Shown in pieces: positions 20,035-21,820 of a stretch of 64,000 nt of DNA. The first letter of the stretch is position 1, and each line of letters opens with the position of its first letter. A program made the translations under genes and the position numbers. Under the pieces are notes generated by a model that saw only the letters and a list, made by a program, of their open reading frames with translations, did not search any database and was not told where the DNA came from. Origin of the DNA: Mechercharimyces sp. CAU 1602 (lineage in GTDB: Bacteria; Bacillota; Bacilli; Thermoactinomycetales; JANTPT01); the NCBI RefSeq assembly GCF_024753565.1, contig NZ_JANTPT010000001.1:558001-622000 (forward strand), given 5' to 3'.

Positions 20035-20571
20035 TTATTCCTTATGTCCATTTAAAATAAAGCTTTGGTATAAGCACCACGATTGATTTTCCAACTGGTA
20101 GAGAAGATGAAAGCGATCAATCTTGGTTTCAATACTTATGTTAGTCATTCTGAGACTTCCGTACACATCGAGAAGCTCATCTTCAGAAAGCTTTTGTCCG
20201 ATTGTGATATGGGGGATAAAAGCGTAGGTCTCAGGGTGGCTGAGCGGACCCTCATTGATCAGATCGTGTAGTTGGATAATATCAGCCCCGTCGTACATGG
20301 AGACGTATATCGTATTGCTGTTGGGATGAAAGGTGCCGATTTTGTTGAGGAAGATGGTGAAGGGAGCTGTCCTTTCAGCTACTTTTTCTAAATGCTGTAC
20401 AATATTGGTGATCGTCTCCTCTTGATTCCCTGTTTCCTCCTCGAGCGTGAACGCTTCTTTTAACGTGATATGTGGTGGGATGAGACCGTAATGGGGATCA
20501 TATCGTTTCCGATATGAGTTGGCAATGTCTTGTACTTTTTTTTCAGGGAATATCGCTACTCCATATTTCAT
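20035..20571 (-). CDS. yjcG: 2H phosphoesterase (YjcG-like)
   Basis: A 178-residue protein with the two His-x-Thr motifs of the 2H phosphoesterase superfamily: PPHITLKE near residue 33 and IPHITIGQ near 120. Relatives hydrolyse or transfer 2-prime,5-prime or cyclic phosphodiesters in RNA or nucleotides. The physiological substrate of YjcG is not known. ATG with AGAAGGAGG upstream. It is first in a two-gene operon with the GNAT gene 16 bases downstream. Confidence 0.87.
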   Translation of the reverse strand: MKYGVAIFPEKKVQDIANSYRKRYDPHYGLIPPHITLKEAFTLEEETGNQEETITNIVQHLEKVAERTAPFTIFLNKIGTFHPNSNTIYVSMYDGADIIQLHDLINEGPLSHPETYAFIPHITIGQKLSEDELLDVYGSLRMTNISIETKIDRFHLLYQLENQSWCLYQSFILNGHKE

Positions 20572-20804
20572 GAAAATCGCCTCCTTCTAGTAAATGAAAG
20601 ATGATATGACTTTAGACACCCATCTGAGCGTATGATAGTGAGCTAGCGATAGTTTTGCTTTTCTGTGTGGTGTTGGAAATAAGAATGGTTGCCAGGTGGA
20701 GGGTTGATTTCTATATTATGCCCCACAGAGTGTAAATAAAGGTCTTTGGCAGAAATTATAGCAAAAAAACGCTTCATTTGCGAGGGATGGAGAGAGCGAT
20801 TATC

Positions 20805-20902
20805 AAAAAAGAGCAGCGTCAAAGCTGCTCATGTTCGAGGAGGGAACATCTGTCCAATGGCAGGTACAGATGGTCTTTGGCAAACGATTGTTTCGTTTGC
20901 TG
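20805..20902 (-). ncRNA. Candidate small RNA with anti-Shine-Dalgarno loop
   Basis: Read on the minus strand, about 97 nt hold four successive hairpins. The first is GCAAACGA/TCGTTTGC (20900-20880), the second ATCTGT/ACAGAT (20871-20848), the third ATGTTC/GAACAT with loop CCTCCTC (20849-20831), and the last GAGCAGC/GCTGCTC (20830-20811) followed by TTTTTT. The last is an intrinsic terminator. The CCTCCTC loop is the exact complement of GAGGAGG, as in base-pairing sRNAs of Firmicutes. A sigma-G-like -10 (CATACTA) lies at the right distance. The layout recalls CsfG, a forespore sRNA of Bacillales, but that identity is not verified. No open frame is evident. Confidence 0.55.
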
Positions 20903-20907
20903 ATCTA

Positions 20908-20938
20908 TAGTATGCGAAACGTAGAAGAACTGGTATCC
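20908..20938 (-). promoter_or_regulatory. Candidate sigma-G (forespore) promoter for the small RNA
   Basis: On the minus strand CATACTA (20914-20908) equals the sigma-G -10 consensus. A GGATA motif at 20938-20934 is a weak -35 with a 19-base gap, slightly longer than usual. The predicted start near 20902 falls directly before the first hairpin. Confidence 0.45.
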
Positions 20939-20997
20939 GCTCATGAATGAAATATGCGTTTATCCTGCAGTTTTATATAAAATATTCGAGTGAACCC

Positions 20998-21026
20998 TTG
21001 CGCATTTTTTTTGTATGTAGTATAGT
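20998..21026 (+). promoter_or_regulatory. Promoter of the tRNA cluster
   Basis: TTGCGC at 20998-21003, 17 bases, then TATAGT at 21021-21026: a sigma-A-type promoter about 50 bases upstream of the first tRNA. The rest of 20572-20800 shows nothing I can assign. Confidence 0.65.
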
Positions 21027-21075
21027 ATTAATTGTCGCTGATAAACATGCTTCGCTTTTAGAGGCGAAATATTGA

Positions 21076-21151
21076 CGCGGGATAGAGCAGTTGGTAGCTC
21101 GTCGGGCTCATAATCCGGAGGTCGCAGGTTCAAGTCCTGCTCCCGCAACCA
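21076..21151 (+). tRNA. Initiator tRNA-fMet (CAT), copy 1
   Basis: A 76-nt cloverleaf with encoded CCA. C1 faces A72, the unpaired first position of initiator tRNAs, and the anticodon loop is CTCATAA. In the anticodon stem the third pair next to the loop is G31-U39 instead of G-C. The acceptor stem ends with A7-U66. Confidence 0.93.
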
Positions 21152-21187
21152 CATATCATATCAGATTGATTATCGCACATACATTGA

Positions 21188-21263
21188 CGCGGGATAGAGC
21201 AGTTGGTAGCTCGTCGGGCTCATAATCCGGAGGTCGCAGGTTCAAGTCCTGCTCCCGCAACCA
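21188..21263 (+). tRNA. Initiator tRNA-fMet (CAT), copy 2
   Basis: Identical to copy 1 over its whole length, including G31-U39 and A7-U66. The spacer that follows is nearly identical to that behind copy 1, so copies 1 and 2 are a recent tandem duplication of about 112 bp. Confidence 0.93.
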
Positions 21264-21300
21264 CATATCATCTCAGATTTGATTATCGCACATACATTGA

Positions 21301-21376
<76 letters not shown>

Positions 21377-21384
21377 AATAATGC

Positions 21385-21460
21385 GGAGCTGTGGTGTAGG
21401 GGTTAACATGCCTGCCTGTCACGCAGGAGATCGCGGGTTCGAATCCCGTCAGCTCCGCCA
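21385..21460 (+). tRNA. tRNA-Asp (GTC), copy 1
   Basis: A 76-nt cloverleaf with acceptor GGAGCTG/CAGCTCC, anticodon loop CTGTCAC (anticodon GTC), T-loop GGTTCGAATCC and encoded CCA. Confidence 0.95.
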
Positions 21461-21561
21461 TGTTATTTAAAGATATATATGGTACAGTGAATTAAGTGAC
21501 TGCTACGCATATTCGAGATCGTTAGCGCCCATCGTTACTTTATCTTTTGCAACCAAATAAT

Positions 21562-21637
21562 GGAGCTGTGGTGTAGGGGTTAACATGCCTGCCTGTCACG
21601 CAGGAGATCGCGGGTTCGAATCCCGTCAGCTCCGCCA
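21562..21637 (+). tRNA. tRNA-Asp (GTC), copy 2
   Basis: Identical in the mature region to copy 1. The 14 bases ending at its first nucleotide (21549-21562) repeat the 3-prime end and flank of the third fMet gene, showing the copy arose by duplication of an fMet-Asp junction. Confidence 0.95.
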
Positions 21638-21647
21638 CTTTACTTAA

Positions 21648-21723
21648 GGGCCTATAGCTCAGTTGGTAGAGCAGTCGGCTCATAACCGATAGGTCACAGG
21701 TTCGAGTCCTGTTGGGCCCACCA
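21648..21723 (+). tRNA. tRNA with CAT anticodon (elongator Met or Ile2)
   Basis: A 76-nt cloverleaf with fully paired acceptor GGGCCTA/TGGGCCC (one wobble), loop CTCATAA and encoded CCA. The paired first position excludes an initiator. CAT may be read as Met, or as Ile after lysidine modification; sequence alone does not settle it. Confidence 0.9.
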
Positions 21724-21745
21724 GTCGTTGTATAAGATAACGTAA

Positions 21746-21820
21746 GGGCAGTTAGCTCAGGGGGAGAGCGCTTCCTTGACACGGAAGAGGTCGTTGGTTC
21801 GATTCCAATACTGCCCACCA
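21746..21820 (+). tRNA. tRNA-Val (GAC)
   Basis: A 75-nt cloverleaf with acceptor GGGCAGT/ACTGCCC, anticodon loop TTGACAC (anticodon GAC), and encoded CCA. It is the last gene of the cluster; a terminator follows at 21879. Confidence 0.95.

Follow-up and report, generated by a model that had tools for sequence, protein, structure and literature searches.

The region analyzed here is a 64,000-nucleotide stretch of the Mechercharimyces sp. CAU 1602 genome (the window), in which a short segment without a protein-coding gene lies between a tRNA cluster and a yjcG-like gene. The minus strand of this segment carries the features of a small RNA gene. The features of the locus, in order of position, are as follows.

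20035..20571, minus strand: yjcG-like gene (2'-5' RNA ligase superfamily), the downstream neighbour and synteny anchor
20805..20901, minus strand: proposed small RNA of about 97 nt, its ends deduced from the -10 element (5') and the U-run (3')
20805..20830, minus strand: intrinsic terminator GAGCAGC-TTTGAC-GCTGCTC-TTTTTT (stem 20830..20811 plus a six-U run)
20831..20849, minus strand: alternative hairpin AUGUUC-CCUCCUC-GAACAU, not conserved
20837..20846, minus strand: C-rich motif UUCCCUCCUC, predicted to be single-stranded, the complement of GAGGAGGGAA; present in 22 of 22 orthologs, partly by selection
20847..20872, minus strand: hairpin 2 (CATCTGT-loop-ACAGATG), its sequence almost fixed among the closest genomes
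20880..20900, minus strand: hairpin 1 (GCAAACGA/TCGTTTGC), with pairing kept despite varying sequence in 12 tabulated orthologs
20906..20914, minus strand: -10 element CATACTATA, which fits CATANNNTA (sigma-K type) and, in the window genome only, also CATACTA (sigma-G type)
20932..20937, minus strand: -35-like region GATACC, read from the sequence
20950..20958, minus strand: CGCATATTT, which by sequence comparison resembles a conserved CACATTTT-type block (TTCATGCC...GCACATTTT) upstream of the orthologs' promoter
21076..21820, plus strand: tRNA cluster (Met, Met, Met, Asp, Asp, Met, Val), divergent from the small RNA

A Met-Asp-Met-Val tRNA cluster adjoins the element in divergent orientation in the relatives scanned. 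The tRNA-Met and tRNA-Asp genes in the window are duplicated or triplicated with repeated spacers, and the clusters of relatives are smaller.

The minus-strand RNA of positions 20800-20910 is predicted to fold far more stably than its composition would suggest, with an MFE of -37.8 compared to -18.6 +/- 3.4 for shuffled sequences (z -5.7, 0 of 200 shuffles as good). The earlier note had described four hairpins ending in a terminator; the strong fold and the TTTTTT terminator are borne out, but the best fold contains three hairpins. The fourth was the one that placed CCTCCTC (20843..20837) in a loop as an exact anti-Shine-Dalgarno sequence. The complementarity itself holds, CCUCCU being complementary to AGGAGG, but the hairpin lies 1.8 kcal/mol above the best fold and its pairs form with a probability of about 0.08. 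Its 3' arm, GAACAU, is confined to the window, no ortholog having it. The motif is instead an unpaired linker, and the conserved C-rich unit, UUCCCUCCU(C), is longer than CCTCCTC. It is predicted to be unpaired, with probabilities of 0.60-0.99, in all 22 orthologs.

No open reading frame of at least 60 aa covers the element and the frames on either strand are not conserved, in agreement with the original observation that no protein frame explains the sequence. One short frame was considered as a gene, MFPP... (ATG TTC CCT CCT), and rejected: 5 of 22 orthologs have no ATG there, and the codons diverge after the first four. Rfam, at gathering as well as lax thresholds, places no family at the element, only tRNAs and one chance snoRNA match, and a literature search found no small RNA paper on the Thermoactinomycete group.

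Orthologs were collected in two steps. The element was found by blastn in 10 of 60 relatives in addition to its own genome, and a covariance model of hairpin 2 and the C-rich motif (R1), followed by yjcG synteny, was then used to extend the set. Together these methods place the element at the same chromosomal position in 22 of the 42 sampled genomes of the order, representing 15 genera. The carriers include Melghirimyces thermohalophilus, M. profundicolus, Marinithermofilum abyssi, Marininema halotolerans and Kroppenstedtia guangzhouensis. Since TTCCCTCCT itself served to select several of the orthologs, its invariance is in part a product of that selection and carries no independent weight, unlike the blastn set, the synteny, the promoter and the terminators. 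In several other genomes, among them G005, G010, G020, G031, G035 and G040, the yjcG locus is present but no copy of the RNA can be recognised, which implies that the RNA is dispensable.

Two wider scans were also carried out. Searching 84,980 species for the exact pattern returned 5 loci from Thermoactinomycetes and 12 unrelated ones, the latter rejected as orthologs since their flanking sequences are unlike the small RNA. A class-wide model scan of 250 genomes returned 12 matches inside the order and two weak outsiders (L220 and G238), and on reading the L220 match is an unrelated terminator. As far as these sequence searches reach, the family is confined to one spore-forming order, the Thermoactinomycete group.

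The elements that recur across the orthologs are UUCCCUCCU, the terminator and two hairpins, of which the 5' one shows compensatory changes. The arms of hairpin 1 vary by genus yet pair in 12 of 12 tabulated orthologs, with 6 to 9 pairs each. For example, the pair following a fixed CAA/TTG is A-T, T-A, C-G or G-C depending on the genus, a fourfold compensatory column. In about six orthologs hairpin 1 is poorly formed or lacking. Hairpin 2 is replaced by an unrelated hairpin or is absent in distant genomes, the replacements at its site being TTGGCC/GGCCAA in G006 and GTCGG/CCGAC in G009 and G030. A terminator hairpin, differing in sequence, closes every ortholog. In Melghirimyces thermohalophilus (L008/G011) a nested insertion of about 45 nt enlarges hairpin 1 while the outer stem is kept.

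The conservation of the terminator hairpin bears on whether the element is an independent gene at all. It could instead be a leader or attenuator of yjcG, a gene that is co-directional and lies within about 120-235 nt both here and in three other genomes (G013, G022 and G004). In most of the orthologs checked, however, the terminator is separated from the yjcG-type gene by a gene in the opposite orientation, and we regard a leader as highly improbable. The earlier suggestion of an unlisted small RNA has held up well, given the lack of an Rfam match and the syntenic orthologs in 15 genera, and the sequence comparisons indicate that the element very probably encodes a stand-alone, trans-acting RNA.

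The promoter was compared across the same 22 orthologs. The consensus letters of the sigma-K, sigma-E, sigma-F and sigma-G promoters are general knowledge in the field. The -10 region fits CATANNNT in 22/22 orthologs and CATANNNTA in 18/22; by position, C-A-T-A and the T at position 8 are present in all 22 and the A at position 9 in 18. The earlier note had read the -10 as sigma-G-like and assigned the RNA to the forespore. CATACTA is indeed present, with hairpin 1 beginning 5 nt after CATACTA(TA) at 20914..20906, but the sigma-G form CATNHTA, with its T at position 6, is unique to the window (1 of 22 orthologs). The conserved pattern resembles that of mother-cell sigma-K and lends no support to expression in the forespore.

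The -35 region was read in the same way. Published sigma-K promoters have a 5-nt -35 and a 10-nt -10 element about 15 nt apart (PMC517825), so an 'AC' is expected about 17 nt from CATA. Such an 'AC' was found 16-17 nt upstream of the -10 in 12/22 orthologs from 7/15 genera, the other 8 genera being without it (P ~1e-4 against the local AC frequency, or 8e-4 when only genera with all members positive are counted). The window's own 'AC' lies at N18 from the -10, one off the optimum.

Sigma-E also uses a CATA-type -10, and an ATA is found 18 nt upstream in 6 orthologs. The RNA might therefore be under other regulation, either sigma-E or vegetative, with the match to CATANNNTA being incidental. 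The published sigma-E layout is shorter, however, with an 8-nt -35 and a 12-nt gap (PMC517825), the sigma-E -10 CATACANT is present in 0/22 orthologs, and an ATA at N15-17 is present in 1/22. Such regulation is accordingly judged fairly unlikely. On these promoter comparisons, expression in the mother cell (from a sigma-K promoter, less likely a sigma-E promoter) is modestly favoured.

The element had also been proposed as a forespore RNA and a possible relative of CsfG, and several properties are in keeping with this: the C-rich motif, the hairpin at the 5' end close to the promoter, the CATACTA -10 of the window and a CsfG-like overall layout. For the Rfam CsfG covariance model suggested for the comparison, these searches of Rfam turned up no such family. 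The csfG region appears there only as RF00516, 'ylbH leader', which spans the csfG interval in antisense orientation (L045:1766-1890 and L065:1868-2044); for this reason RF00516 may be a mis-stranded csfG. A dedicated model of the CsfG core (R2) was built from csfG-type RNAs of Bacillaceae ylbG-rsmD intervals, which were traced through 81 genomes and aligned. R2 finds csfG in 40 of the 42 genomes of the order. This includes the window's own genome, where a full-length core scoring 88.6 bits (G000:C1:1388860-1388918) is flanked by rsmD and coaD, gene names that were read from the sequences. R2 gave no match to the window element (20805-20938) or to its orthologs.

The two RNAs have in common a sporulation-type promoter, a 5' hairpin, a C-rich single-stranded region, a terminator and likely Shine-Dalgarno pairing. 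The differences are as follows. First, the CsfG core, a CTTACG-UUUCCCC-AUAAG hairpin with CGGUUUCUCCUCUCCC, is not found in the window RNA, and neither are the CTTACGTTTCCCCATAAG hairpin and CGGTTTCTCCTCTCCC of CsfG. Secondly, CsfG (csfG/S547) lies between ylbG and ylbH (rsmD), whereas the window RNA lies between the tRNA cluster and yjcG. Third, CsfG has a forespore sigma-F/sigma-G promoter; in these same genomes csfG mostly shows GTATA...GGCAATNATA, unlike the promoter of the window RNA and its orthologs. With a genuine csfG beside rsmD in the same genome, and csfG near-universal in the order, even a close relative of CsfG is quite unlikely, and on sequence grounds identity with CsfG itself is excluded.

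Other known C-rich small RNAs were considered as well. RoxS/RsaE (RF01820) resembles the window RNA in having a C-rich region expected to pair with the Shine-Dalgarno sequences of several mRNAs, but its locus and regulation differ. The RF01820 covariance model gave no match at E values up to 5 in 20500-21080 and none over its cut-off in the 42 genomes of the order, which rules out this identity. FsrA uses C-rich regions on its mRNA targets (PMC8216469); it is C-rich like the window RNA but Fur-regulated, a comparison made by description only (PMC8216469 and general knowledge). The window RNA shares with this functional class a conserved Shine-Dalgarno complement (UUCCCUCCU) predicted to be single-stranded in the 22 orthologs.

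From these properties the following mode of action can be proposed. A sigma-K-type RNA polymerase would transcribe the RNA late in the mother cell, and its hairpins would leave UUCCCUCCU exposed in a single-stranded linker. The UUCCCUCCUC linker would pair with GAGGAGGGA-type Shine-Dalgarno sequences of several mRNAs, and this pairing would occlude ribosome binding in the manner of the C-rich regions of RoxS and FsrA. Potential partners are numerous: in 8 genomes, each carries 22-38 copies of GAGGAGGGA-N3-10-ATG, compared to 1-6 of a reversed control. Twenty of these starts were read, and they include those of ribosomal protein L13 (three genera) and Mur ligases (two genera), names read from the sequences; these are leads at most. 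Exact complements are found at the starts of L13, Mur-ligase-like, dacA-like and panD-like genes. In a search for targets no start stood out from ordinary strong Shine-Dalgarno sequences, the complement being common.

The linker might alternatively act through a protein or a G-rich sponge RNA, without covering Shine-Dalgarno sequences. A G-rich sponge for C-rich small RNAs, RosA, exists in B. subtilis (PMC8216469), and hairpin 2 is near-invariant in the closest genomes, beyond what pairing alone needs. However, UUCCCUCCU is a plain Shine-Dalgarno complement, and sequences that match it exactly are present at many start sites, so that an action of this kind is judged rather improbable. Shine-Dalgarno pairing is the likely mode of action as judged from the motif. 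Taking the parts together, the best explanation, to which we assign a probability of roughly 0.6 on sequence comparisons, is that the locus encodes a new, order-restricted, C-rich base-pairing small RNA that would occlude Shine-Dalgarno sequences late in the mother cell.

Many sporulation-specific small RNAs are found in B. subtilis and few have a known role (PMC12456014, PMC9147052). The family described here has a defined structure and a readily apparent pairing motif, and its promoter is probably of the mother-cell type. As a compact family coexisting with CsfG, it would allow a clean test of compartment-specific RNA silencing of translation in late sporulation. It is conceivable, though we hold it only tentatively, that the two form a two-compartment system, with CsfG in the forespore and, in the mother cell, an unrelated sigma-K-dependent RNA that in late sporulation silences many mRNAs whose ribosome-binding sites contain GAGGAGGGA.

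Several observations concern the neighbouring sequence. A conserved protein of about 58 aa (...DWWVYGYESPEEVEVFQSKKGRYGVRYIW) is encoded divergently between the small RNA and the tRNA cluster in L002, L004, L008, L009, L105 and others; it has no Pfam match and was not found in the window's genome. Its ribosome-binding site in three closely related genomes is AGGAGGGAACA, an 11-nt match to the small RNA that is not kept elsewhere. Upstream of its gene lies GCATG-N18-CACNATA, which is sigma-G-like by eye, and the strongly conserved TTCATGCC...GCACATTTT block is perhaps part of this divergent gene's promoter.
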